DNA from: Thermoplasmata archaeon
GTDB taxonomy: Archaea; Thermoplasmatota; Thermoplasmata; Lutacidiplasmatales; UBA184
NCBI GenBank assembly: GCA_021828665.1
Contig: JAJZDH010000003.1
Coordinates: 1-34,422, forward strand
Length of the DNA: 34,422 bases
Direction of reading: 5' to 3'
The translations under genes and the position numbers were made by a program. The first letter of the stretch is position 1, and every line of letters begins with the position of its first letter. Positions 5,592-19,438 of the stretch are shown here, piece by piece. The notes under the pieces are model-generated. The model did no database searches, was not told where the DNA came from, and saw only the letters and a program-made list of their open reading frames with translations.

Positions 5592-6377
5592 TCACCCGAG
5601 ACGGGGGGTTCCCTTCCGACCGAAGGCGGCGACCGCCTTCGCGTTCTCGGGGCTGCCCCGGAGCGGATCCGCGAGGTCGAGCTCGAGGGCGAGCCCGTCG
5701 GCCAGGCTCAGGTCGAGGCCCCGGCGGACCGATTCGCGGGCGGTCCGTACGGCGCGCGGCGGGAGCTCGGCGATCCGTGCGGCGACCGCGCCGGCCTCCG
5801 CGCGCAGCCGTTCGAGGGGAACGATCCGGTTGATGAGTCCGAGCTCGTAGGCGCGGGCCGCGGAGATCGGTGCGCCGGTGAGCATCATCTCGAGCGCCAC
5901 GTTCGGCGGGAGGGCCCGGGGGAGCCGTTGGGTCCCGCCTTGGCCGGGGATGATGCCCCATCGCACCTCCGGCAGCCCGAACGTCGCGTTCGGGCTGGCC
6001 CATCGGAGATCGCAGGCGAGCGCGAGTTCGAGGCCGAGCCCGAGGCAGAGGCCGTTGATGGCGGCCACGACCGGCTTTCCCGGGTCGAAGTTGCGGGTGA
6101 GCCCGCCGAGGCCCGGTTCCCGCTGCCAGCGGGAGCGCCGTTCTCCCGGACGACCTTCCGCATAGAAATCGTCGAGCCGCTTCAAGTCGATCCCGGCCGA
6201 GAACGCCTTGGAGCCGGCCCCATCGAGGAGCCCTACCCGGAGACGGTCGTCGTCCCGGAGCCGGATCCAGGCGCGGACAAGGTCCGCGTGCATCTCGGGG
6301 TCGATGGCGTTCAGGCGCTCCGGCCGTTCCAGCGTCACGCAGAGCACGCCGCCCCGGGCCCGCACGCCGATCGGCAT
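5592..6377 (-). CDS. enoyl-CoA hydratase/isomerase family protein (crotonase); possible dienoyl-CoA hydratase
   Basis: A 261-residue crotonase-fold enzyme of usual hydratase length. Both catalytic glutamates of true hydratases are present: one in LGLGLELALACD and one in FGLPEVRWGIIPGQGGTQRLPR. The oxyanion-hole segment AFSAGIDLKRL is also present. Expected reaction: addition of water to a 2-enoyl-CoA. It lies about 4.7 kb from the benzoyl-CoA reductase island on the same strand and could serve as the cyclohexa-1,5-diene-1-carbonyl-CoA hydratase (Dch) missing from that island, or in ordinary beta-oxidation; the sequence alone does not decide. The ATG at 6377 sits about 25 nt from a TTAA-centred box on the minus strand, so the message is probably leaderless and monocistronic. 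Confidence 0.9.
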   Translation of the reverse strand: MPIGVRARGGVLCVTLERPERLNAIDPEMHADLVRAWIRLRDDDRLRVGLLDGAGSKAFSAGIDLKRLDDFYAEGRPGERRSRWQREPGLGGLTRNFDPGKPVVAAINGLCLGLGLELALACDLRWASPNATFGLPEVRWGIIPGQGGTQRLPRALPPNVALEMMLTGAPISAARAYELGLINRIVPLERLRAEAGAVAARIAELPPRAVRTARESVRRGLDLSLADGLALELDLADPLRGSPENAKAVAAFGRKGTPRLG

Positions 6378-6600: not shown

Positions 6601-9600
6601 ATGGGGGCTTCCCGAACCGCCCGGGGCGCTCCCGGCCGCTCGAGGACCCGGCCCGATCGCCCGCGGAGGCGCGCCGCGGTGCCGTGGACCATCGCCGTGG
6701 TCGTGGGGATGCTCGTTTCGGGTCTCGGCGTGGCCGCCGGTTCCGGTCCCGGGGCGGCGACGGCGAGCTCCGGGTCGCCGGCCGACCGCCCGGTGGCCGT
6801 CGGCCACCGCGACGCCACAACGCCCGCGGTCCCGGGTCCCACCGGCCGTACCCCGATCGACCCGCCCGGACCCCTCGCCCCGGGACGGTCGGTTTCGGCC
6901 TCCGCGACGACCGGAACCACGGGGGTCCCACCGGCCCGCTTCTCCTCGATCCGCATGGGTTCCTTCCATCTCCCCGGCCCGCACCCCCAGTCCTGGGGCG
7001 ACTCGGCGGTGCCGCCCGGGGCCCCGTTCGCGGTCGGCCCGGTGCCGTCCGCTCCGGCCGGGGGCCCGGCTGCGAGCGCATCGGAGAACAGCTCGGTGTT
7101 CTGGAGCGGCCACTGCGCGGGTCTCTATCCGGCCACGGGAAATGCGACGTACTACGACGGTTGCGTCGGCCACGACGAGCCCGGCATTCAGTTCTACTCC
7201 CCCGTTCCCGGGAGCGCGGGGAACATCACCTGGAACGTCACCCTGCCCGTGGACGTAGGCCCCTCCCAGAACCAGTCGAACCTGTACGTCGCGGTGTGGT
7301 TCGGGATGACCCTGAGCGACCCGCTCGCCTGGCTGGACCAGTGCTTCCTGGAATTGCAGCTGTACCCCGACTCCTCGTGGAGCGTTCCCGCCGTCTCCGG
7401 CGAATGGATCGGCGCCGCCGTCGCCTGGCAGATCGAGGCGGCCACCGGCTACGAGGATCCGTGCTACTACTCGCCCCTCTACCTCCACGGCCTCCCGACC
7501 GACGGGTACTTCAACATGACCGGCGGCGACCAGCTCACGGTGGCGATGTCGGGCTGGGAGAACGACCCGTGGGGGGAGAACATCTCCCTGATCGACCGGA
7601 CCCAGCACACCACCTCGAACCTCACCCTGGTCGACCCCTACTCGAACCTCCCGCTCGATCCGGCGTATTCCACCAACAGCTACGAGAACGGGCTCCAGTG
7701 GACGCCGGGCGGCGAGTACCCCAGCGTCTTCGCCTTCGAGACCGGCCACGGGCGCAACCCCGCCTACCCGACGAATACCACCTTCAACTACTGCGCGCCC
7801 GGTCCCCCTCCCGCGACGGCGGCGAATCCCGACGTGCCGTGCCCGAGCTACGATCCGGGAAGCTGGTCGAACGACACCGCCCAACCGTGGAGGATCGAGG
7901 TCCCCACCTTCGGCACGGGGACCCGCACGGCACCGGCCGCCCAGGTCTCCTTCTCGCAGGACCTCGGTGGGATCGACCTCGATGCCGGCGCGCCGGGCTG
8001 CCCCGGAAATCTCGGCAGCGCCTACTGCAGCTATCCGTGGTACAGCTACTCCTGCGCGACCCACTCCTTCCAGTTCGGGGCCACCGACTATCCGGGGGTC
8101 TCGGAGGACTTTGGAAAATACCTGGAGTTCGCCACCTCCGCCGAATCGAACGATCTCGGGTTCGGGTACTATCCGCCCACCAACTTCACCATCCCCACCT
8201 GCGGGGCCGCCTCCGCTTCCGTGAACCTTTCGATCGGCGGGCCGTCGGGAGGTTCCGTCTACTTCCTGTCGCACGATTACGGTTCGGCCGCCGTCATCTC
8301 CGGCCTCGCCCCGGGAGCGTACTCCCTGGACGCTCTCGCTTCCGGCGCCGTGGGGTTCGACCGGTGGGCGGTGACCGGGGCGCTCGCCGTCGGCTCCCCC
8401 ACCGCGGCGTGGACCACCCTCTGGGTGAACGGGAGCGGCAACCTCTCCGCCTCGTTCCAATCCTCGCCGCCCGCGACCGTCGCGGTGACCTTCGACGACT
8501 GGGGGGCGGCGGGCTCGGTCGCGGTGCTGCCGAGCTACCTCCGGATCACCGCCGGGGCCGCCCTCGCCACGGCGGCGAACGGGAGTTCCGTGGCGCTCGT
8601 CCCGCAGATCTACGGGCTCCTCGCCGATGCGCCGCCCGGGTACAACTTCACGCACTGGGCGGTGAACGGCTCGGGAGCGGTCATCGCCGCGAGCGGGCTG
8701 CCGACGAGCTGGCTGCTGGTGGACGGCGCCGCGGCGCGGGTGACCGTCACCGCCTGGTACGCCGCGTCGTCGACGTTCGATTCGATCACGGTCGCCGTCT
8801 CCGGAAACGGGACCGTGAACCTCTCCGGCTCCTCGGGGAGCAGCTTCTCCGAGACGCTCCGCGTGGGCAGCTACCCCGTGGTGGCCGATCCCGGACCCGG
8901 CTGGTCCTTCCAGGGGTGGTACGCCGGAGGGAGCGCCGCGATCCCGGACAACGGGCCGTCGAGCAACCTCACGCTGGAGAACGGCAGTTCGTACCTCTAC
9001 GCCTATTTCGGGGAGCTGCCGGTCGCGGTCCTCCTGGAGGTGGCCCCGGCCGCCGGGGGGACCGTCTCGGTGATCCCGGGCTCGTTCGATGGGAACAACA
9101 CCACCCTCGAACTCCCCGTCGGGACGACCTCGGTGGGCGTGCGGGTCGCCACGGGCTACCGGTTCCTGGGATGGACCGTGAACCAGTCGGGTGCGGGGTG
9201 GGTCGAGAGCCCCGGGGCGGCCGTCTCGAACTTCGTCGTGAATCGGACGGTCCGTCTCACCGCCGATCTCGTGGCCGCGCCGCTCGTCACCGTCTCCTTC
9301 CGGGCCGATCCTCCGGCCGGCGGGTCGATCGAGTTCAACTTCCGCACCTACGGCAACGGCAGCCAGAACACGACCGCCAACGGCTCCTACGCCCTCGCGT
9401 TCGCCCCGTCGCCGGGGTATTCCGAGGTCGGGGTCGGAGCCTCCGGTCCGCTCTCCGTCGGGTCGGGCGTCCTCCAGATCTCGGGAGGCGGCGGGGTGCT
9501 GACGGTGGACTTCCAGGCCATCCCGCCGGTGCCGGTCGCCGTGACCTTCGTCTCCGAGCCCGTGGGAGCCATGTTCGCCCGGATCCAGGGCACCGCCGTG

Positions 9601-10959
9601 ACCTCCGGCGACACCCGGTGGATCCTGCCGGGAACGTATTCGCTGGCGGTGACGACCGCCGCGGCGGACACGTTCGCCTTCTGGACCACGGCGGGCGGGG
9701 TCGGGGTGACCCCGGGCGGTCCCAGCGCCACCCTTTCCGTTTCGGGAGGGGGCACGATCTATGCGATCGGCGCCCCGTTCGTGGTGCGCAACGTCTCGGT
9801 GGCCCCGGCCGTGGTCGACGTGGGCCGGCCGATCCTCCTCGGGGCGGTCGCGACGGGGGCGGGGCCGTTCGCGTACGCGTGGTCCGGGGTCCCCGGCGGG
9901 TGTCCGACCGGCCCCCTCCGTTCCGGTGGAGTCTCCTGCACGCCGACGGTCCCGGGTACCTACGCCGTCCGGCTCACGGTCACCGATACGGAAGGGGCCT
10001 CCCTCGGCCTCGGCCCGTTCGGACTCACCGTCACGCCGCTTCCCCAGATCCAGCTCTTCTCGGCGAGCCCGTCGGCGTTCACCTTGGGCGTTTCCACGCT
10101 CCTCTCGGTCGTGACGGCGAACCCGCCCGGCGGGGTCCCTCCGCTCACCTTCGAGTATCCGGCGTTGCCGTCGGGGTGCGCCCCCGCGGACACCGCGGTG
10201 CTCGTCTGCACCCCCGACCGGGCCGGGAATTCCACGGTGACGGCCCGGGTGGTCGACGCCTCGGGCGCGGCTTCCGAGGCGAACCTCACGCTCGCCGTCG
10301 CCCCGCTTCCCCAGATTTCGTCGTTCGCCGCCTCCCGCCTGACGGTGACCGAGGGGGCGGTCACGAACCTCTCCGTCGCGTGGACCGGGGGGACGGGACC
10401 GTTGGGATGGGTCTACACCGACCTTCCGACCGGGTGCGTCTCGGAGGACGGGCCGCGCCTCGCCTGTTCTCCGAACGGCGCGGGGACCTTCTCGCCGACG
10501 GTCCGCGTCACCGACGCCGACGGCTTCGTGGCCGTCGCGACCCTTTCGCCCCTGGTGGTGAACCCGCCGCCGTCGATCCAATCGTTCGCGGCGAACCCGG
10601 ACCGGATCCCCCTCGGAAACACCACCGAGCTCACCGTCGCCGCCTCGGGAGGAACGGGGAACCTGAGCTACCGGTACACCGGTCTTCCCGGAGGATGCGG
10701 CCCGTCCGTCTCCCCGGCGCTCGCGTGCCGGCCCGCCGCGACGGGGAATTTCACCATCGGGGTGACCGTCACCGACGCCGACGGGATCGAGGCGGTCGCG
10801 TCGGTCCTCCTCGCCGTGACGACCCCCGTCCCGGCCTCCCCGACCCATGGCGGCGCCCCGGGCACCCCGTCGTGGGAGTGGGCGCTCCTGGGGGTCGCCG
10901 GGGTGGCGGCGCTCGCCGTCGGGATCGTGGTCGGGCTCCGGCGCCGCCGGGTCGCGTGA
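6601..10959 (+). CDS. large repeat-containing, C-terminally anchored surface protein
   Basis: A 1452-residue predicted secreted protein. A basic N-terminus precedes a hydrophobic signal segment (about 28-48). A Ser/Thr/Pro-rich linker follows, then a large N-terminal domain (about 160-535) of unrecognised family, rich in Trp, Tyr and paired Cys. From about 536 to 1060 come roughly six tandem modules of 80-90 residues with a GxVxv...ppGYxFxgW pattern, like bacterial surface-repeat domains. From about 1061 to 1415 come four PKD/Ig-like modules, each with a YxWxG/YTGLPxGC core, a second Cys 15-20 residues later and a VTVTDADG strand. The C-terminus has a membrane helix (about 1425-1444) followed by RRRR. 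More than 30 N-X-S/T sequons suggest heavy N-glycosylation. The role is probably adhesion, sugar binding or part of the cell envelope (inference). The ATG at 6601 is clean, with only a weak TTCATGA element about 28 nt upstream. Confidence 0.88.
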   Translation: MGASRTARGAPGRSRTRPDRPRRRAAVPWTIAVVVGMLVSGLGVAAGSGPGAATASSGSPADRPVAVGHRDATTPAVPGPTGRTPIDPPGPLAPGRSVSASATTGTTGVPPARFSSIRMGSFHLPGPHPQSWGDSAVPPGAPFAVGPVPSAPAGGPAASASENSSVFWSGHCAGLYPATGNATYYDGCVGHDEPGIQFYSPVPGSAGNITWNVTLPVDVGPSQNQSNLYVAVWFGMTLSDPLAWLDQCFLELQLYPDSSWSVPAVSGEWIGAAVAWQIEAATGYEDPCYYSPLYLHGLPTDGYFNMTGGDQLTVAMSGWENDPWGENISLIDRTQHTTSNLTLVDPYSNLPLDPAYSTNSYENGLQWTPGGEYPSVFAFETGHGRNPAYPTNTTFNYCAPGPPPATAANPDVPCPSYDPGSWSNDTAQPWRIEVPTFGTGTRTAPAAQVSFSQDLGGIDLDAGAPGCPGNLGSAYCSYPWYSYSCATHSFQFGATDYPGVSEDFGKYLEFATSAESNDLGFGYYPPTNFTIPTCGAASASVNLSIGGPSGGSVYFLSHDYGSAAVISGLAPGAYSLDALASGAVGFDRWAVTGALAVGSPTAAWTTLWVNGSGNLSASFQSSPPATVAVTFDDWGAAGSVAVLPSYLRITAGAALATAANGSSVALVPQIYGLLADAPPGYNFTHWAVNGSGAVIAASGLPTSWLLVDGAAARVTVTAWYAASSTFDSITVAVSGNGTVNLSGSSGSSFSETLRVGSYPVVADPGPGWSFQGWYAGGSAAIPDNGPSSNLTLENGSSYLYAYFGELPVAVLLEVAPAAGGTVSVIPGSFDGNNTTLELPVGTTSVGVRVATGYRFLGWTVNQSGAGWVESPGAAVSNFVVNRTVRLTADLVAAPLVTVSFRADPPAGGSIEFNFRTYGNGSQNTTANGSYALAFAPSPGYSEVGVGASGPLSVGSGVLQISGGGGVLTVDFQAIPPVPVAVTFVSEPVGAMFARIQGTAVTSGDTRWILPGTYSLAVTTAAADTFAFWTTAGGVGVTPGGPSATLSVSGGGTIYAIGAPFVVRNVSVAPAVVDVGRPILLGAVATGAGPFAYAWSGVPGGCPTGPLRSGGVSCTPTVPGTYAVRLTVTDTEGASLGLGPFGLTVTPLPQIQLFSASPSAFTLGVSTLLSVVTANPPGGVPPLTFEYPALPSGCAPADTAVLVCTPDRAGNSTVTARVVDASGAASEANLTLAVAPLPQISSFAASRLTVTEGAVTNLSVAWTGGTGPLGWVYTDLPTGCVSEDGPRLACSPNGAGTFSPTVRVTDADGFVAVATLSPLVVNPPPSIQSFAANPDRIPLGNTTELTVAASGGTGNLSYRYTGLPGGCGPSVSPALACRPAATGNFTIGVTVTDADGIEAVASVLLAVTTPVPASPTHGGAPGTPSWEWALLGVAGVAALAVGIVVGLRRRRVA

Positions 10960-11049: not shown

Positions 11050-12072
11050 CTACGGAACGACGACCGTCCGGAAGCCGAGGCCCTGCCGGAGCCGCTCGGC
11101 CGCGCGACCGATCTCCTCGAGGGGCACGCGCCCGGTCACGACCGGCCCGAGCTCGATCCGTCCCGAGCGCACGAGCTCCACGACCCGCCGGTAGTCGGCG
11201 GGGCGGCATCCGAGCGAGCCCACGACGGTGTATTCGTGGAACATGACCCGGGGGGCGGGCAGGACCGCCGGCGCGGAGGAGTAGCCGAGGAGGCAAAGGC
11301 GCCCGCCGCGGCGCAGCAGGGAGAAGGCCATCTCGATCGTTTTCGGATGGCCCACCGCCTCGACGACCACGTCGGCCCCGTCGTGCCAGATCCGCCGGAG
11401 TTCCCGGGCCGGGTCCCCGGTCCGGGAGGGATTCACCGTCGCGGCGGCCCCGAGACGCCCCGCGACCTCGAGTTTCGCATCGCTCAAGTCGATGGCCACC
11501 ACCTCCGCGCCGGCCCGGTACGCGAACTGGACCACGTTGATGCCGACGCCGCCGCATCCGAGGACGGCGACCCGTTCGCCGGCCCGGACCTGCGCCCGGT
11601 GGACCACGGCGTGGTAGGGGGTGGTGAGCGCGTCGGAGATGACGGCGGCGAGCACCGGGTCGATCTCCCCGGGCAGGGCGACCAGGTCTTTCGCCGGCAC
11701 CACCACCATCTCCGCGAATCCCCCGTCCACGTGGTTGCCGACCATCTTCATCCCGGGGCAGATGTTCTCCCGCCCCGTCCGGCAAAAGTCGCATCGGCCG
11801 CAGGGGAGCACCGCCGGTACCAGCACCCGGTCGCCGGGGGCGACCCCCTCGACGCCGGGTCCCAGCGCATCGATCCGGCCCGAGATCTCGTGGCCGAGGA
11901 TGATCGGCGGCGGTTTCGCGGTGGCCACCCCGTGGTCCAGGTAGTGGAGATCGGTGTGGCAGAATCCGCAGGCGAGGACGGTCACCCGCACCTCGCCGGG
12001 ACCGGGTTCGGGCCGCCCGACCTCCTCCACCTGGAGACCCCGGGCCGGATCCCGGAGCACCGCCGCCCGCAC
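11050..12072 (-). CDS. had: zinc-dependent alcohol dehydrogenase, probable 6-hydroxycyclohex-1-ene-1-carbonyl-CoA dehydrogenase (Had)
   Basis: A 340-residue medium-chain dehydrogenase. Catalytic zinc: Cys38 in CGFCHTDLH and His61-Glu62 in the GHE motif. Structural zinc: Cys91, 94, 97 and 105 in CGRCDFCRTGRENIC. The Rossmann NAD(P) site is VAVLGCGGVGINVVQ. The family is certain. The Had assignment rests on its place downstream of the benzoyl-CoA reductase genes, because in that pathway a zinc alcohol dehydrogenase oxidises 6-hydroxycyclohex-1-ene-carbonyl-CoA for the Oah hydrolase. Other alcohols remain possible. The GTG at 12072 was chosen because GGGGGAGG lies about 11 nt upstream on the minus strand and the protein then begins in the usual RAAVL strand. 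A gap of about 600 nt separates it from bcrC, so it may have its own transcript. Confidence 0.82.
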   Translation of the reverse strand: MRAAVLRDPARGLQVEEVGRPEPGPGEVRVTVLACGFCHTDLHYLDHGVATAKPPPIILGHEISGRIDALGPGVEGVAPGDRVLVPAVLPCGRCDFCRTGRENICPGMKMVGNHVDGGFAEMVVVPAKDLVALPGEIDPVLAAVISDALTTPYHAVVHRAQVRAGERVAVLGCGGVGINVVQFAYRAGAEVVAIDLSDAKLEVAGRLGAAATVNPSRTGDPARELRRIWHDGADVVVEAVGHPKTIEMAFSLLRRGGRLCLLGYSSAPAVLPAPRVMFHEYTVVGSLGCRPADYRRVVELVRSGRIELGPVVTGRVPLEEIGRAAERLRQGLGFRTVVVP

Positions 12073-12680
12073 GATCGGTTCAACCTCCCCCGACGGAGCC
12101 GACCGGTGCCGGTCCGGGGAAGGGACGGCCGTTCCGTCCGTGGGGGAGGGGGCCCGGCGCCCGTCGGGGGCCCCCGGCGGGGGTCGGCGGCGCCCCAGCC
12201 GGCGGGCGTCCCGGCGCTCCCTCCCGACGCCGCGCGCCGGCGGCCGGACCCGGACCGCACGGGGACCGGCGCCCGGCCGGGAACCCTGGTGGGAGGATCT
12301 CCCGGCGGCCCCCCGCGATCCCGGGCGGCCACCTGCCGGGAACGCCCTCCGCCGCGGATCGGCCCGGGACGGCTCCGCGGAGGGGACCGGTCGCCCGTTC
12401 CCCGAAGGGAATCGACGCTCCGGGCCGGAGGCACCGGAGAGGGTGGGTCGTCCGAAGAGCCCCCCGGTCCGGGAGGTCCGGAGCTCGTCGACCGGCGGGC
12501 CCCCGGAAGTGGGCCGCGGACGGACGGGACGCCTCCGCCCTGCCGGAGGTCCCGGCGGGGCCGTGACGTCGCCGCCTATCGGACCCGGGATCCGGACGGC
12601 CCCCTCGGGCGTCGGGGTCCCGGGAACCGCCCCGTTCCCCCCCGCCCATCGGGCCCGCCTCCCGCACCGCTCCTCCGGGC
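12073..12680. other. 608-nt gap between had and bcrC
   Basis: I see no gene here. Open frames on both strands read as Arg/Pro/Gly-rich low-complexity sequence typical of non-coding GC-rich DNA. No TATA-like run, tRNA-like fold or repeat array is visible. The only signal is the GGGGGAGG ribosome-binding sequence just before had. It could be a long untranslated region or the remains of a lost gene. Confidence 0.5.
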
Positions 12681-13925
12681 TCAGGCGAACAGGATCGACT
12701 CGACGAAGGTCTCGAGCTGGAGACGGGACTGGTCGAGCGCCGAGGACCGTTCCTCGAACTCGAGGTGAAGGGACGGGATCTTCTCCCGGTCCAGGGCGGC
12801 CCGGTACAGGACGATGTCCTCGAGCGCCGGCTCGCAGAATTTCGCGGTCAGGAAGAGGACCGCCTGCGCCCCGGCCGCCGCGACCCTTCCGAGGATGGCC
12901 TCCCCCTTCGTCGTGGGGGTGGCCCGGACACCGATGTCCAGGGGGCTCTCGACGTAGGCGCGGGCGAGGTTCTCGAGCGGATCGCCGGTCGGGTCGACCG
13001 CCGGGTGCCACCGGTAAAGCTGCAGGAGCTCGTCGTCGACGACGTAGCAGCCCACCTGCTCGAGGAGATCGAGGAGATCGAGGGTCGGCTGCTCGCAGAA
13101 CGAACCCACGAGCAGCACCCGGACGGAGTCCTTGGGACGGGGCACCCGGTCCTCGACCGCGGCGCGCATCCGGCGCAGGAGCTCGAGGTGCACCTCGCGC
13201 GGGAGGAGCCCTCCCAGCCGCCGGACCAGGTACGACTCCGTGAGGGAGATCCGGGACGGGTCCCGCCGCTTGATCTCGGTCCAACGGGCGATCTCCGCCC
13301 GCTGCCGGTTGAACAGCTCGATGGAATCGGCCAACCGGTCGGGCCGGTACGGGGAGCCGCCGGCCGATTCCAGGACGCGGAGGAGGCGGCGGTACTCGGC
13401 GACCAGGAACGGCACGGTCGCCGCCGACCGGAAATTCTGGGGGAGGTGGAGCATGTGGGTGGCGGCGCCGGGCACCGCCCGGGGAAAGATCCCCTCCAGA
13501 TTGCGGCTGACGTCGCAGATGTACGGGAAGACGAACGCCCGGAACGGGGCGAGGCGGCCGGTCAGACCCATTTCGAGGGTGGACTTGCTGATGGAGCAGA
13601 GGAAGGATCCCAGCGCCGCGTCCGCGTGGCTGATCTCGATGGTCTCCCCGCCCCCGTGGAGCGCCACGGGCAGCATCCCCATCGCATGGATCAGTTCCTG
13701 CGGGGTGTAGACGGGGAAGCATCCGACGGCCGACCGGCCGGACCGGTTCCAGGCCCGCACGGTGGGCCAGGTCGCGTCGGCTAGGACGGCCCGGGCGAGC
13801 CGGTCGACGGCTTCGAGGGATGGGGCCCGGGCGAACTCTTCGAAGGAGTCGCTCACCTCGAGGGGCGGGGCGCCCTCGGGATCGGCGGCGGCGGCGGCCC
13901 CTTCGGAGGAGGCGCGGACGGCCAT
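12681..13925 (-). CDS. bcrC: benzoyl-CoA reductase subunit C-like protein (2-hydroxyglutaryl-CoA dehydratase D-component family)
   Basis: A 414-residue D-component protein, one of two that together hold the substrate and iron-sulfur clusters of class I benzoyl-CoA reductase. Family features: VGCFPVYTPQELIHAMGMLPVAL (Cys69), the following GSFLCSISKSTLE (Cys110), VFPYICDVSRNL (Cys137), VGSFCEQPTLDLLDLLEQVGC and FLTAKFCEPALED, the conserved Cys positions expected to ligate [4Fe-4S] clusters. The N-terminal 22 residues are Ala/Glu-rich and probably disordered. It starts 3 nt after the bcrD stop and ends the reductase block. The C versus B assignment follows overall pattern and gene order and would need a tree. 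A 2-hydroxyacyl-CoA dehydratase subunit is the alternative, made less likely by the two activators and Oah beside it. Confidence 0.82.
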   Translation of the reverse strand: MAVRASSEGAAAAADPEGAPPLEVSDSFEEFARAPSLEAVDRLARAVLADATWPTVRAWNRSGRSAVGCFPVYTPQELIHAMGMLPVALHGGGETIEISHADAALGSFLCSISKSTLEMGLTGRLAPFRAFVFPYICDVSRNLEGIFPRAVPGAATHMLHLPQNFRSAATVPFLVAEYRRLLRVLESAGGSPYRPDRLADSIELFNRQRAEIARWTEIKRRDPSRISLTESYLVRRLGGLLPREVHLELLRRMRAAVEDRVPRPKDSVRVLLVGSFCEQPTLDLLDLLEQVGCYVVDDELLQLYRWHPAVDPTGDPLENLARAYVESPLDIGVRATPTTKGEAILGRVAAAGAQAVLFLTAKFCEPALEDIVLYRAALDREKIPSLHLEFEERSSALDQSRLQLETFVESILFA

Positions 13926-13928
13926 GCC

Positions 13929-14747
13929 TCACCCCTCGACCGCGAGGACCGCGGGGGGCCGACCGCCGAGCTTCTCGAGCCGCGCGTGGCCCAGGATCGC
14001 CGCCCCGAGCGCGGCGGCGTGGTGGGCGCGGGGGTCGGCGACGACCGGCACCCCCGCCGTCCGGGAGAGCGCCTCGACCATGGCCTCGCTGTGGACCAGG
14101 CCGCCGACGAGCGCGACCTCCGGTTGGATTCCCGCATGACGCATCAGGATGTACGCCCGCTGCGCCAGCGACAGGAAGACCCCCATCAGGATGTCGGGGA
14201 GCGGGACCTCCTCGGCCACGCTGTTGATGATCTCCGTCTCGGCCAGGACGGCGCAGACGCTGGAGATCATCTTCGGGTGGGCCGCGGCGAGCGCCTTCGG
14301 CGCCATCTCCTCGAGCGGGACCTGGAGGTACTTCGCGCACCGGTCCACGAACCGGCCCGCCCCGGCGGCGCACTTCTCGTTCATCTTGAACCGGACGACC
14401 CGGCCGGACTCCGAGATGGACATCGCCCGGGAGGACTGGCTGCCGATGTCGACCACATGCCGGGTCCCGGGGTGGAGGAAGGCGGCGCCGCGGGCCGAGG
14501 CGGTGATATCGCTCACCTGCAGGTGGCGGTCGGGGTAGGCGTAGCGGGCCCCGCCGGTCGTGCAGAGGTAGTCGACCTCCCCCGGCAGCAGGTTGGCCTC
14601 CTCGACCATCGTTTCGAGGATCTTCCGGCCGGCCGCGACGGGGTTGCCCCGGGTCGGCAGGAGGGCGGTGGCGAGGATGCGGCGGCCCTCCTCGAGGAGG
14701 ACCCCTTTGGTGGAGCCGGAACCAAGGTCGAGGCCACCCGAGATCAT
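13929..14747 (-). CDS. bcrD: benzoyl-CoA reductase ATPase subunit D-like protein (ASKHA, BadF/BadG/BcrA/BcrD family)
   Basis: A 272-residue ASKHA ATPase that couples ATP hydrolysis to low-potential electron transfer into the reductase. Phosphate-1 loop: GLDLGSGSTKGVLL (5-18). The phosphate-2 region reads DIGSQSSRAMS (100-110), differing from the canonical DIGGQDTKA of its partner. Adenosine region: ALVGGLVHSEAMV. Cys126 (NEKCAAGAGRF) and Cys165 (SVCAVLAETE) match the two Cys with which each protomer of such activators holds a shared [4Fe-4S] cluster. The divergent phosphate-2 motif and the pairing with a second, canonical ASKHA gene suggest BcrD rather than BcrA. The ATG at 14747 overlaps the bcrA stop by 4 nt (ATGA). 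Confidence 0.82.
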   Translation of the reverse strand: MISGGLDLGSGSTKGVLLEEGRRILATALLPTRGNPVAAGRKILETMVEEANLLPGEVDYLCTTGGARYAYPDRHLQVSDITASARGAAFLHPGTRHVVDIGSQSSRAMSISESGRVVRFKMNEKCAAGAGRFVDRCAKYLQVPLEEMAPKALAAAHPKMISSVCAVLAETEIINSVAEEVPLPDILMGVFLSLAQRAYILMRHAGIQPEVALVGGLVHSEAMVEALSRTAGVPVVADPRAHHAAALGAAILGHARLEKLGGRPPAVLAVEG

Positions 14748-15532
14748 GCGGAGATCCCCTCCGTCCGCTCGCGGCCGTGGAGCGCCGCCCCGATCGCCCC
14801 CACGTACTGCGAGAGCGGGCTCACGTTGACCGGGAGCGCGAGACGCCGCTCCAGGGTCCGGACCATCCCCCCGTTCCGGGAGACGCCCCCCGTGAAGGTG
14901 ACCTCGGGCTCCACGCCGACCCGTTGCAGGAGCGAGAGCGAGCGGCCGACGATGCCGCCGTACAGGCCGGCGAGGATATCCGGCGGCTCCTTGCCCCGGG
15001 CCACGTAGGAGGCCACCTCGGACTCCGCGAAGACCGTGCAGGTGTTCGTCACCTTCACGGGGTGCCGGGCCCCCTCGGCGAGGGCCCCGATCTCGCTCAC
15101 ATCGAAACCGAGGGCGCCCGCGCACACATCGAGGAACCGGCCGGTCCCGGCGGCGCACTTGTCGTTCATCGCGAAATCCACCACCTCCCCGCGGGGGTCC
15201 ACCTTGATTGCCTTCGTGTCCTGGCCGCCGATGTCGAGGACGACCCGCGTGCCGGGGAAGAGGAAGTGGGCTCCCTTGGCGTGGCATCCGATCTCGGTCA
15301 CGGTGAACCGGCCGAAGGCGACCTTGAACCGGCCGTAGCCGGTCCCGGTGACCACCGCCACCTCGTGGCGTTCCCGGCCGGCCTCGGCCAGCGCCTGCGC
15401 CAGCGCCCGCTCGGCGTCCTTCACCAGTTCGACGCCGACGGGGGCCAGCGACTTGCCGACGATCCGGTCTCCCTCGAGGAGCACGCATTTCGCCGTCGTG
15501 GACCCGATGTCCACGCCCGCCACGAGCGTCAC
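14744..15532 (-). CDS. bcrA: benzoyl-CoA reductase ATPase subunit A-like protein (ASKHA, BadF/BadG/BcrA/BcrD family)
   Basis: A 262-residue ASKHA ATPase, partner of the next gene in a heterodimeric activator. Phosphate-1 loop: GVDIGSTTAKCVLL (6-19). Canonical phosphate-2 motif: DIGGQDTKAIK (100-110). Adenosine motif: TFTGGVSRNGGMV (212-224). Cluster-binding Cys126 lies in NDKCAAGTGRF and Cys165 in NTCTVFAESE, at exactly the same positions as in BcrD. The enzyme class hydrolyses two ATP per two electrons delivered to the aromatic ring. The GTG at 15532 overlaps the bcrB stop by 4 nt (GTGA), and its own stop overlaps the bcrD start, so the three genes are translationally coupled. Two distinct ASKHA genes side by side point to class I benzoyl-CoA reductase and away from 2-hydroxyglutaryl-CoA dehydratase, which uses a homodimer. 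Confidence 0.85.
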   Translation of the reverse strand: MTLVAGVDIGSTTAKCVLLEGDRIVGKSLAPVGVELVKDAERALAQALAEAGRERHEVAVVTGTGYGRFKVAFGRFTVTEIGCHAKGAHFLFPGTRVVLDIGGQDTKAIKVDPRGEVVDFAMNDKCAAGTGRFLDVCAGALGFDVSEIGALAEGARHPVKVTNTCTVFAESEVASYVARGKEPPDILAGLYGGIVGRSLSLLQRVGVEPEVTFTGGVSRNGGMVRTLERRLALPVNVSPLSQYVGAIGAALHGRERTEGISA

Positions 15533-16809
15533 GGTGCCCCCCGCAGGGGTTCCGCCGCGCCCCCCCGGCGCCGATCGAGCGACTCGAAGAACGCATCCAT
15601 CCGGTTCTTGATCTGGGCGGGGGCGAAGTACCGTGGATCCTCGTGATCCGACTCGATGTAGAGCGTGGGGATCCCGAGGTCGTGGATCAGCCGGTCCCGC
15701 AGGTCGCCCTGGCCGGCGGTGAACGACCGGCAGGACTTGATGCCGTGGATGAGCACGGCATCGGCGGCGAACTCCCGGACGTACTCCTCGATGAGCTTGC
15801 GTCGCAGCGGCCACGACTGGTTCACGTACGCCCCGAGGGCGTATTCGGCGATGCTCTCGAGCGGGCGGGCCGGGTCGTGGAGGAACCCGCGGTCGAAGAG
15901 GCCGCCCACCTTCGGATAGGTGGCGGCCACCGACACCGCGCCCCACTTCCGGAAGAAGTCCCAGAAGGTCCGGTAGTTCGGGTACGGCGGCACCCCCTCG
16001 ACGACGAGGCGGACCTTCTCCTCCGGCACGGGGTAGGCGCCGGACCGGACCCGCTCGTCGACCTCGGCGTTCAACGTCGCGTAGAACCGGGCGGCCTCCT
16101 CGGTCCCGCGCAGGACATTGATGGGGAACATGTGGAACACGGCCTCGAAGTAGGCTTCGATGGGCGAGGGACGGCGCGCGCCGGAGGCCAGGTACCGGAC
16201 CCACCCCTCCTCGGCGGCCCGGGAGTGGGCCAGGGTGCGCCGCAACGACGCCGGGTCGAACCGCCGATCGGAGGCCTTCTCCAGGAAGGCGATGAATTCG
16301 TTCAGCTGGGCGACGATGTACCCGAGGTCCTCGGTGGGGGGCCGCTCGTCCCGGAGGTACGGGACGTCCAAGAGGAAGAGCGGGCAGCCGAACTTCTCGG
16401 CCAGCGCCTCCCACCACTTCACGTAGACGTAGCAGCCGGAGAAGCTGCAGACGAGGAGGTCGGGCGGCGGGATCCGGCCGAACGGCGTCTGGCCGCCGAG
16501 CTGCTGGAGCCCGAGATCGTTCTTGACGTATCCGCACACGTCGAGGCCGTACCCCTGCGCCTCGGCCTGGAGGATGTTGGGGAGCGAGACATGCTTGATG
16601 GCGCAGTTCAGGGCGACGATCTCGGGGAAGACCACCTCGTAGCCGAACGAACGGACGATCTCCGTGAGGTTGCCGCCCACCAGCATGTAGGCGACCGGCC
16701 GCTTCGCTCCCCCGGCCGTGGCGAGATCGGCGTAGTAGGCCTCGATCATCTCGCGTTGCCGGTCCCGCGCGGAGACCAGGAAGGAGGGCTCCTCGGTGGA
16801 TGCGCCCAT
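15529..16809 (-). CDS. bcrB: benzoyl-CoA reductase subunit B-like protein (2-hydroxyglutaryl-CoA dehydratase D-component family)
   Basis: A 426-residue D-component protein, the second catalytic half of the reductase. Features: the RPVAYMLVGGNLTEIVRSFGYEVVFPE opening strand-helix (about 37-63), GLDVCGYVKNDLG (Cys92), LLVCSFSGCYVYVKWWEALA (Cys121, Cys126), PNYRTFWDFFRKWGAVSVAATY in the middle, and ADAVLIHGIKSCRSF (Cys360) near the end. These are family positions for cluster ligands and CoA-thioester contacts. The length fits the larger D-subunit of class I enzymes. The ATG at 16809 follows the Oah stop by 20 nt, and its stop overlaps bcrA, so oah-bcrB-bcrA-bcrD-bcrC reads as one transcription unit. 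No dedicated ferredoxin gene is present in the window. The B assignment is by length, pattern and order; it needs phylogeny. Confidence 0.82.
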   Translation of the reverse strand: MGASTEEPSFLVSARDRQREMIEAYYADLATAGGAKRPVAYMLVGGNLTEIVRSFGYEVVFPEIVALNCAIKHVSLPNILQAEAQGYGLDVCGYVKNDLGLQQLGGQTPFGRIPPPDLLVCSFSGCYVYVKWWEALAEKFGCPLFLLDVPYLRDERPPTEDLGYIVAQLNEFIAFLEKASDRRFDPASLRRTLAHSRAAEEGWVRYLASGARRPSPIEAYFEAVFHMFPINVLRGTEEAARFYATLNAEVDERVRSGAYPVPEEKVRLVVEGVPPYPNYRTFWDFFRKWGAVSVAATYPKVGGLFDRGFLHDPARPLESIAEYALGAYVNQSWPLRRKLIEEYVREFAADAVLIHGIKSCRSFTAGQGDLRDRLIHDLGIPTLYIESDHEDPRYFAPAQIKNRMDAFFESLDRRRGGAAEPLRGAP

Positions 16810-16829
16810 CGATCCCCCCCTCGCCGGGA

Positions 16830-17891
16830 CTACGGTGGCGGGGCCGGTCCCGCTCCGGCTCCGTCGGACAACGGGGCGCCGCACCGGCCGCAGTAGCGGA
16901 ACAGTTCGGGGAGTCCGGTCTCCCCGCACCGGCCGCAGGACCGGAGCGGGGCGCCGTGGAGGAAGTCGGCCTCCCCGCCCCGCGCGAGAGCGCGTCGCAA
17001 CTCGGCGACCCGGGCCGGTCGCTTGTCGACGAAGGCGTGCATCCCATCGAACGGTTCGGCGGTGGCGAAGTGGAGGGCGAGCCATTCCTGGGCATGCCCG
17101 ACCGTCTGGTTCCAGGCGAACTCCTTCCAGAAGTTGGCCTGCGCCTTCGTGTACCGGAGGCACTCCGGATACATCCCGAGCAGTCTCTGGGCGAGGGCAT
17201 CGACCGCCTCGTCGAGCCGCCCCAGGTCGATCCGGTACCCCCGCTCCTCCTTCTGCGCCCAGCCGATCTCCTCGGCCGTCGGCGCCGCCACCCACTCTCC
17301 GTTGCACACCACCGAGGGGACCACGGAGTTGACGAGCCCCCACTCCGCGGCCCGGGCGGCCGGGACCCGTTCGTTCGTCATCAGCATCGAGCGCGCCCTC
17401 CGGTCCCCGACGGCGAGCGGCAGCCACTGGGTCGCCCCGCCCGCGGCGACCGAACCGACCCCCACGCCGACCTGCCCGAGGTAGATGTGCGCGGCGGCGA
17501 TGGAGAGGTCGCAGGCGAGGTGGAGCTCGTTGCCCCCGCCGACGGCGATCCCGTTGAGGCGGGCGATCACCGGCTTGCCGCAGCGCAGGATGGACTCGAC
17601 CGCCTCGCGGAAGACGGCCATGTACTTCCAGTAGTCGTGGGGACGCTCGAGGAAGCGGCTCGCGTACTCCTTCACATCCCCACCGGTGCAGAACGCCCGG
17701 GAGCCCGCGCCCGTGAGGACGATCACCCCGATCCGATCGTCGCGAGAGGCGTTCCCCATCGCCCGGGTGAGTTCCCGGAGGGTGGCGGTGCTGTAGGCGT
17801 TGTGCGCCTCCAGTCGTTGGAGCGTGATCCGGACCACCGATTCGGACCGCTCGTACCGGAGGTCGAGGTATCCCCCGGATTCGTCCGCCAC
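16830..17891 (-). CDS. oah: 6-oxocyclohex-1-ene-1-carbonyl-CoA hydrolase (Oah) with C-terminal zinc ribbon
   Basis: A crotonase-fold ring-opening enzyme of 353 residues that adds two waters and cleaves the alicyclic ring to give 3-hydroxypimelyl-CoA. Oah-type marks: FCTGGDVKEYA (68-77), VGGGNELHLACDLSIA with Glu122, and LGQVGVGVGSVAAGGATQWLPL, where ordinary hydratases keep a second catalytic Glu. An extra C-terminal region (about 236-290; MYPECLRYTK, EWLALHFATAEPFDGMHAF) is typical of Oah. Residues 319-337 add a zinc ribbon (Cys319, 322, 334, 337) followed by a Gly/Ala/Pro tail, which I do not know from characterised Oah proteins. The GTG at 17891 starts just before the folded domain; an in-frame GTG at 17960 would give about 376 residues, closer to bacterial Oah length, and a T-rich minus-strand element near 18000 fits that start. 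First gene of the reductase operon. Confidence 0.88.
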   Translation of the reverse strand: MADESGGYLDLRYERSESVVRITLQRLEAHNAYSTATLRELTRAMGNASRDDRIGVIVLTGAGSRAFCTGGDVKEYASRFLERPHDYWKYMAVFREAVESILRCGKPVIARLNGIAVGGGNELHLACDLSIAAAHIYLGQVGVGVGSVAAGGATQWLPLAVGDRRARSMLMTNERVPAARAAEWGLVNSVVPSVVCNGEWVAAPTAEEIGWAQKEERGYRIDLGRLDEAVDALAQRLLGMYPECLRYTKAQANFWKEFAWNQTVGHAQEWLALHFATAEPFDGMHAFVDKRPARVAELRRALARGGEADFLHGAPLRSCGRCGETGLPELFRYCGRCGAPLSDGAGAGPAPPP

Positions 17892-18520
17892 CGGGGAGAT
17901 CGGGTCGGGGCGGGCGGAGCCCAGGGCGGCGGAGCCGTTCGCGCGCGCCCGGACCGACACCGCTTCCGCCCCGGGAGGCCATCGGGTCCGGTTCGGAAAA
18001 TCGTTCGCCCTGACCGGTGCGGGACCGGCGGGCCGGGCGATCGCCCCGGTCGGTGCGGCCGCTCCCGGCCCCCGAGGGATTCCGGCGGCCCCGCGGGCGT
18101 CGGCTCGCCGCCTCTTCCGACGGCTCCGCGCTCCGCCACCGGTCGCCCGCGGAGCCCGCGGCGCGCGGAGCGGTCGGTCGGATGCCTTCTCGCTCCGGGC
18201 GATCGCCCCCTCCTCGGGCCCTCGCCGACCGTACCGGTACGGGAAGGCGCGAGGATCCCCTCCGCGGGCGCCTCGTCCCCCGATCGCCCGTGGCGGTCGT
18301 CGGGCCCCCCATCGCCCCCCCCCGCGGGCCCCCGGACCGTCGGAGCACCACGGAACGGAACGATCCGGAGCGCCTCCCCCGGGCGTCGCCATCGTCCCCC
18401 CTCCCCTTGACGGACGTCGGCCGGGCCGGCACGCCGAACCCAAGGTCCGCCGTCCGAAGGGACCCCCCGTGGCCGGGGTTCGGGGTCGGGCGGAGGAACG
18501 GCGGCTTGGGCCGGCAAGCT
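17892..18520. other. divergent intergenic region between oah and hisN
   Basis: About 630 nt with no convincing gene; all open frames are Arg/Pro/Gly-rich. On the minus strand a CGATTTTCC element centred near 18000 is the only A/T-rich run and may be the promoter of the benzoyl-CoA operon, putting the transcript start near 17975. The rest of this stretch is featureless to my reading. Confidence 0.45.
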
Positions 18521-18530
18521 CCAAGTACTC
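18521..18530 (+). promoter_or_regulatory. TATA-like promoter of hisN
   Basis: CCAAGTACTC, identical to the element before FEN1 on the other strand. It predicts transcription starting near 18550, which places the upstream ATG at 18542 before the transcript start and favours the ATG at 18554. Confidence 0.55.
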
Positions 18531-18553
18531 GGAGGGCGGAGATGGCGGCACCG

Positions 18554-19438
18554 ATGGAGCCCCTCCCGCCGCGGCCGCTCGCATCGTCGGTGCCGGGGCC
18601 GCGGGAACTGCTCGAGATCGCCCGGAAGGCCGCCCGGGCCGGCGGTCGTCGGACTCTCGAATATTTCGGGGGGCGGCTCCCGGCGGAGACGAAGTCCGAC
18701 GGCTCCCCGGTGACCCGGGCGGACCGGGCGTCGGAGGCGGCGATCCGGGCCGTCCTCCGGCGGGAGCGTCCCCACGACGGCGTCACCGGCGAGGAAGGAG
18801 GGGTGCGGCCGGGACGCTCCCCGGTCCACTGGATCGTGGACCCGATCGACGGGACGAAGTCGTTCGTCCACGGGGTGCCGCTGTACTCCGTGCTCGTGGC
18901 GGCGGAGGTGGACGGGGAGCCCACCGTGGGCGTCATCCACATGCCCGCCCTCGGCGAGACGGTCGCGGCGGCCCGGGGCCTCGGATGCCGCTGGAACGGC
19001 CGGGCCGCTCACGTGTCGCGAACGGAGCGGCTCTCCGAGGCGACCGTCCTCACCACCTCGGTCCGGGGGTTGGAGGCCCGGGGGGTGCCGTTTCGACGCC
19101 TCGCCCACCGCTCGCGGTGGCAGCGGGGGTGGGGCGACGGCTACGGGTACGCGCTCGTCGCCACCGGACGGGCCGATGCGATGATCGATTCCGCGGTCCA
19201 GATCTGGGACGCGGCGCCGCTCCTTCCCATCCTCGCGGAGGCCGGCGGACGGTTTTCCGATTGGACCGGGCGGGCCTCGATCCGGGGCCCGGACGCCGTG
19301 GGGACGAACGGGCTCCTCCACGAAGAGATGCTCCGCCTGCTCGGGCGCGAGCGCCTTCCCCCGTCGGGGCGGACCCGGGCCCACCCCGCTCCGGGCGGCC
19401 CGCGCCGGCGGGGCCGGACCGATCGGCCTCCCCGGTGA
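18554..19438 (+). CDS. hisN: histidinol-phosphatase, inositol monophosphatase family (HisN-like)
   Basis: A 294-residue Mg-dependent phosphatase of the inositol monophosphatase superfamily. Metal sites: GEEGG (VTGEEGGVRPG), WIVDPIDGTKSFVHGVP near residues 92-105, and the C-terminal IWDAAPLLPILAEAGG. The RGWGDGYGYALVATGRADAMID segment and the SDWTG turn are characteristic of the HisN subgroup that hydrolyses L-histidinol phosphate. The setting agrees: it is convergent with an eight-gene his operon that lacks any other phosphatase, since its hisB has only the dehydratase domain. The start at ATG 18554 was chosen by promoter spacing; ATG 18542 in frame would add four residues. The last 30 residues are Arg/Pro-rich and probably disordered. 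The alternative, a general inositol phosphatase, is less likely here. Confidence 0.85.
   Translation: MEPLPPRPLASSVPGPRELLEIARKAARAGGRRTLEYFGGRLPAETKSDGSPVTRADRASEAAIRAVLRRERPHDGVTGEEGGVRPGRSPVHWIVDPIDGTKSFVHGVPLYSVLVAAEVDGEPTVGVIHMPALGETVAAARGLGCRWNGRAAHVSRTERLSEATVLTTSVRGLEARGVPFRRLAHRSRWQRGWGDGYGYALVATGRADAMIDSAVQIWDAAPLLPILAEAGGRFSDWTGRASIRGPDAVGTNGLLHEEMLRLLGRERLPPSGRTRAHPAPGGPRRRGRTDRPPR

Follow-up and report, generated by a model that had tools for sequence, protein, structure and literature searches.

The 34,422-nucleotide stretch analysed here (the window) comes from the genome of a Thermoplasmata archaeon living in soil, and the gene under study spans positions 6601-10959 of its forward (+) strand. 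It reads as one uninterrupted frame of 1,452 codons that starts with ATG, and its coding status is supported by a third-position GC content of 0.91, which fits coding sequence. The initial annotation described the product as a surface protein with an N-terminal domain (hereafter the head), a stalk of two kinds of repeats and a C-terminal anchor, and every named feature is found within this span. The stalk itself is ordinary; the head comes from an undescribed family, and its predicted fold resembles that of acid-active glutamate peptidases.

All features of the protein are encoded on the + strand. A hydrophobic segment following RRR (amino acids (aa) 25-47; 6673-6741) is, as read from the sequence, a candidate export signal or signal anchor. 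It precedes a Pro/Ala/Ser/Gly-rich linker (aa 48-165; 6742-7095), recognized from composition and from a predicted local distance difference test (pLDDT) score below 50 for its last residues. The head follows at aa ~166-540 (7096-8220), a predicted beta-sandwich characterized with AlphaFold2, Foldseek and sequence searches. The domain had been placed at aa 150-540; it exists, but its start lies nearer aa 166, because aa 144-171 (residues 1-28 of the modelled segment) form a low-confidence linker. With 10 Cys, 13 Trp and 26 Tyr in a 401-residue segment, it is the Cys/Trp/Tyr-rich domain of about 375 residues that had been described.

The first part of the stalk (8236-9780) consists of about six divergent InlB B-repeat (Flg_new_2) modules, identified from composition counts and from three stretches matching Pfam PF18998 above the gathering cut-off (E 2e-7). 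Six GYxFxgW-type modules, as annotated, can be counted by eye, but a strict pattern yields four. This part has no Cys and contains 16 N-X-S/T sequons. The second part (9787-10800) comprises four PKD-like modules, with two stretches matching PF00801 above the gathering cut-off (E 5.5e-9). It holds exactly four Cys pairs, one per module (1101/1113, 1193/1203, 1279/1289 and 1366/1376), corresponding to the two-Cys core noted earlier and without counterpart in the preceding repeats. The protein ends in a transmembrane anchor with an RRRR tail (aa 1426-1452; 10876-10956), also read from the sequence, and many homologues have similar C-terminal ends. The whole protein carries 35 sequons, in line with the more than 30 reported previously, compared to 9.0 +/- 2.7 (maximum 23) in 2,000 shuffled sequences; by this excess alone, it would be prone to glycosylation. 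The overall layout is consistent with the proposal that the stalk presents the head outside the cell, and the protein is probably displayed there on a membrane-anchored repeat stalk.

A head domain shared by archaea and bacteria

No Pfam match was obtained for the window head alone or for 26 further archaeal members; for PF01828, the window head, 27 archaeal members and 7 bacterial members gave no hit at E<=1. No NCBIfam family matched the window head or the tested bacterial members. Sequence searches of the PDB with the head gave nothing significant; matches to an mL87 fragment (E 0.38) and to YpeB (E 1.2) were dismissed as chance level. A profile match to a known family, which would have argued against a new domain, was thus looked for and not found at the sequence level, and the link to known proteins lies at the level of the fold.

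Relatives of the head occur in 25 of the 61 genomes searched, the window genome included, and at least 80 loci were found in the genome collection. For the organism itself, the closest named relatives are metagenome-assembled genomes of Thermoplasmata, among them Candidatus Lutacidiplasma silvani. Within the class Thermoplasmata, the head is nearly restricted to one family (27 sampled genomes), with one distant match in another family of the class (genome G415). The window genome (1.62 Mb in 176 contigs, 98% complete) has a single head domain; in some relatives, as many as six matches were found. The archaeal heads, known from Lutacidiplasmatales-like Thermoplasmata, fall into two types, both borne on long stalked proteins.

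In bacteria, the family occurs in Chloroflexota, Dormibacterota, Actinomycetota, Acidobacteriota and Pseudomonadota. Stand-alone members (L074-L095; from Chloroflexota, Dormibacterota, Actinomycetota and one labelled Proteobacteria) combine an N-terminal hydrophobic segment with the domain at a length of ~350-380 residues, have neither stalk nor anchor, and are secreted proteins made up of the head domain. A distant, longer bacterial branch (L096-L110; frames mostly 540-680 aa) retains the motifs GHDEP, FLELQFYPPG and EIGH and has an extra CFP...FDGxxY...W region. Taken together, the sequence comparisons indicate that the head represents a real, undescribed family common to archaea and soil bacteria.

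In a quick tree with long branches, the second archaeal type joins the bacterial stand-alone type (Shimodaira-Hasegawa-like approximate likelihood ratio test (SH-aLRT) 95), and the type of the window head forms a separate clade (SH-aLRT 99). The former grouping hints at transfer of the head between archaea and bacteria; no plasmid relatives of the bacterial homologue were found. One contig labelled "bacterium isolate DX1.bin10" encodes an archaeal-type stalked member (L072) that groups within the Thermoplasmata, and this record is probably mislabelled.

An alignment of 70 sequences from six phyla, the distant group included, covers types that differ down to ~30% identity. In protein numbering (head-segment numbering + 143), H191, E193, E251, Q253, E380, H383, W233, W367, C172, C398 and C414 are invariant. 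H191 and E193 lie in the motif GHDEP (aa 190-194; 7168-7182), of which D192 is present in 69 of the 70 sequences. E251 and Q253 share one predicted strand within FLELQLYP (aa 249-256; 7345-7368), which reads FLExQxYP in all members. E380 and H383 belong to FETGH (aa 379-383; 7735-7749), with E380 on another predicted strand. As these polar residues are invariant across divergent sequences, we interpret them as an active-site pattern, in which the E251 region would contain a candidate first catalytic residue and E380 would be the candidate catalytic base. The initial annotation had left open whether the domain is binding or enzymatic; the pattern of invariant acidic residues, Gln and His favors an enzyme over a binding module.

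The same residues could also build a metal site, given that H191, D192/E193, E251, E380 and H383 are all near-invariant. The His/Asp/Glu set of GHDEP and ExGH would then bind a metal, and the head would be a metal-dependent hydrolase or another metalloprotein. We consider this decidedly improbable, since no well-known metalloenzyme family tops the fold matches described below, and an upstream His at similar spacing in neprosin holds a catalytic Glu instead (PMC9343461).

Predicted fold and proposed function

The window head was modelled with AlphaFold2 without templates at a pLDDT of 86.9 and a predicted template modelling score (pTM) of 0.87; for the bacterial stand-alone protein L074 these values were 80.5 and 0.83. 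When the window head was compared to the PDB using Foldseek, eqolisins occupied the first three places (E between 3.5e-5 and 3.8e-4, prob 1.00), with 2ifw as the top match (E 3.5e-5). For the L074 model, neprosin (7zvb) ranked first (E 5.6e-4, prob 1.00, TM-score on target 0.47), and more neprosin entries and the HC7 di-glutamate mucinase were found at prob 0.92-0.98. Neprosin is missing from the top 50 PDB fold matches of the window head, and a viral protein fold library gave no match below 1e-3. The N-terminal domain had been suggested as a possible new fold, but its fold seems not to be new: glutamate peptidases are the best solved matches of both models, and the head is predicted to resemble their all-beta sandwich.

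Carbohydrate-active enzymes also appear among these matches, such as GH16 (7kr6; E 3.7e-3, prob 0.96) and the alginate lyase Aly36B, which rank below the eqolisins for the window head, and GH16 and PL7, which recur in the list of the L074 model. The head could accordingly be a carbohydrate-active enzyme, either a glycoside hydrolase or a lyase, that is built on a concanavalin-like sandwich and uses E251 and E380 as acid/base and nucleophile; a pair of Glu placed on different strands might fit a retaining glycosidase. This is the main alternative, which we regard as unlikely, though deserving consideration: glutamate peptidases rank first in both fold searches, no carbohydrate-active enzyme family was matched in Pfam, and the GH16 signature ExDxE, located on one strand, is absent from the head. 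Legume lectins and other sugar-binding sandwiches stand lower in the fold lists, and PKD stalks in the same genome also bear beta-propeller, kelch and beta-helix heads, so that a lectin or adhesin on a stalk for attachment, its invariant residues being structural, has been considered as well. Such a binding module is quite unlikely, as six charged or polar residues are invariant over 70 divergent sequences and the bacterial versions are free, secreted and anchorless, unlike an adhesin.

Several observations weigh against assignment to the glutamate peptidases. The TM-scores are modest (0.26-0.36 on query, 0.45-0.48 on target), with a root-mean-square deviation of ~8-9 A, and such loose superpositions lend firmer support to the class of fold than to any particular family. 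Concanavalin-like folds include lectins, GH16 enzymes and alginate lyases besides peptidases, and both lists contain lectins and GH16 or alginate lyase entries at weaker E-values. The two AlphaFold2 models use partly common alignments and are therefore not fully independent. In Pfam, the head matches none of PF01828, PF03080 and PF05317, and the hhalign probability with eqolisins is just 13-26%. Finally, it is by strand order and spacing that E251 and E380 are likened to a catalytic pair.

On balance, we slightly favor the interpretation that the product is an acid hydrolase at the cell surface, with a head of glutamate-peptidase-like fold, cleaving external proteins or glycoproteins in acid soil. 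In its favor stand the invariant polar residues, the first-ranking fold matches of both models, a neprosin-like order and spacing of residues, the profile score with eqolisins, the free secreted form in bacteria, the absence of conserved gene neighbours, and the acid peptidases displayed by the same genome and reported for the order. By analogy to the glutamate peptidase families, from which the mechanism is drawn, E380 would serve as the general base that activates a water, E251 (or Q253) would polarize the scissile carbonyl, and H191 and H383 would orient the acidic residues in the manner of neprosin H134, which holds E297. Stalk and anchor would keep the activity away from the cell, and nutrient acquisition would be the likely role. 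Peptidase activity, pH range and substrate are all inferred. That the head constitutes a further family of glutamate-class peptidases, apart from G1, G3 and HC7, built around a Glu/Gln/Glu centre that two His residues assist, secreted free by soil bacteria and stalk-bound in Thermoplasmata, is a more tentative proposal, for which we put the chances at somewhat under even.

No gene neighbours of the head gene are conserved, as expected for a hydrolase that acts alone. The order to which the nearest relatives belong is described from acidic environments (PMC9287336). The same publication names A4, S53 and A5 (thermopsin) as the main extracellular peptidases of the order and, in the passages covered by a term search, makes no mention of the head family.

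If the proposal is true, a further family that is probably acid-active would be spread over acid-soil archaea and bacteria. To our knowledge, only few glutamate peptidase families are known. The candidate catalytic residues are directly testable in a bacterial protein of small size (~350 aa).

Genomic setting and other stalked proteins

A paralogue count returns the single head domain mentioned above, whereas about ten further surface proteins encoded by this genome have PKD stalks related to the window stalk, with beta-propeller, kelch and beta-helix domains among their heads. Two thermopsin heads are carried by stalked, C-terminally anchored proteins of 1,027 and 1,015 aa (L134 on contig C13 and L135 on contig C150), which have GLPxGTxW-type repeat modules and, in L134, PEGA. 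In related genomes, thermopsins are mostly located within frames of 700-1,800 aa. One of the proteins with a related PKD stalk, an anchored protein of 927 aa (L150:75-2855 (-), contig C31), bears PNGase A as its head (PF12222, E 3.4e-29) and is a possible stalk-displayed glycoprotein deglycosylase. Lutacidiplasmatales-like archaea mount different heads (the window family, thermopsin, PNGase A) on repeat stalks, a likely means of using protein as food in acid soil. At L146:396-3230 (-) on contig C146, one open frame contains kelch and PKD modules and, at the C-terminus, a peptidyl-tRNA hydrolase (PTH2) domain; such a fusion of surface and cytoplasmic parts is unexpected, and a sequence error may lie behind it.

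The gene is flanked by genes similar to those for class I benzoyl-CoA reductase, at 11050-16790 (-) and 5592-6230 (-). They include a subunit C-like gene (12681-13925, -; TIGR02263, E 9e-75), two BcrA/BcrD-like activase-type ATPases (within 13929-15596 and 14744-17200, -; NCBIfam), and a subunit B-like gene at the low-coordinate end of frame 15529-18942 (-; TIGR02260, E 8e-101), as well as a 6-hydroxycyclohexene-carbonyl-CoA dehydrogenase-like alcohol dehydrogenase and an enoyl-CoA hydratase. All matches fall under the NCBIfam equivalog cut-offs save the activase domain. From these similarities, anaerobic aromatic degradation in a Thermoplasmata archaeon is possible. A functional link to the head gene was rejected, as the neighbourhood is not conserved.

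Comparison with known peptidases and surface proteins

The eqolisins (MEROPS G1, PF01828 Peptidase_A4, scytalidoglutamic peptidase 2IFW), the best fold match of the window head, have in common with it the predicted beta-sandwich, secretion and a succession of elements that runs WxG, Gln/Glu strand, W strand, GDxI, DxTxG and Glu strand. The catalytic residues of SCP-B are Q53 and E136 (PMC6154417), and Q253 and E380 occur on the predicted strands in an order corresponding to this Gln-Glu dyad. In contrast to eqolisins, the head has ~150 extra C-terminal residues and invariant His, and the SAEW(I/V) around the catalytic Glu is replaced by FETGH or WEIGH. In a profile comparison, the head scored 33.4 with the eqolisins, compared to a maximum of 24.1 for 60 column-shuffled decoys, with GDxI...DxTxG aligned; global hhalign gave no meaningful alignment, and the link suggested by the profiles is weak. 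Eqolisins were found in 26 of the 61 related genomes searched and not in the window genome.

Neprosin (MEROPS G3, PF03080, 7ZVA/7ZVB) is the best fold match of the bacterial head and likewise has two Glu and an upstream His. Its catalytic residues E188 and E297 are assisted by H134 and Y136, H134 being the residue that holds E297, and G1 and G3 share a common sandwich with catalytic pairs at corresponding positions despite 11% identity (PMC9343461). Spacings in the head (neprosin in brackets) are 42 (41) for H-W, 18 (13) for W-E, 25 (26) from the first Glu to the next aromatic residue and 129 (109) for Glu-Glu. The head differs in having no PF03080 match, no recognizable prodomain and its own motifs FLELQFYP and ExGH. 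The hhalign probability with neprosin was 0.2, using a thin profile of two sequences; this negative is uninformative because the eqolisin-neprosin control also failed (0.6).

The di-glutamate mucinase HC7 (PMC13003899), a glycoprotein-cleaving enzyme, is matched by the bacterial head (8PN3, 8PN5 and 8PMU; prob 0.95-0.98) at ranks below neprosin; the resemblance is one of predicted fold. Membership of the thermopsins (A5, PF05317) was rejected, with no Pfam match and an hhalign score of 15, below that of shuffled decoys. The stalked thermopsin proteins nevertheless combine an acid peptidase head with a long repeat stalk and an anchor, as proposed for the window protein. Similarly, InlB-B/PKD surface proteins (PF18998, PF00801) share the stalk modules and C-terminal anchor with the window protein, which is distinguished from them by a Cys pair in each PKD-like module and by its new head.

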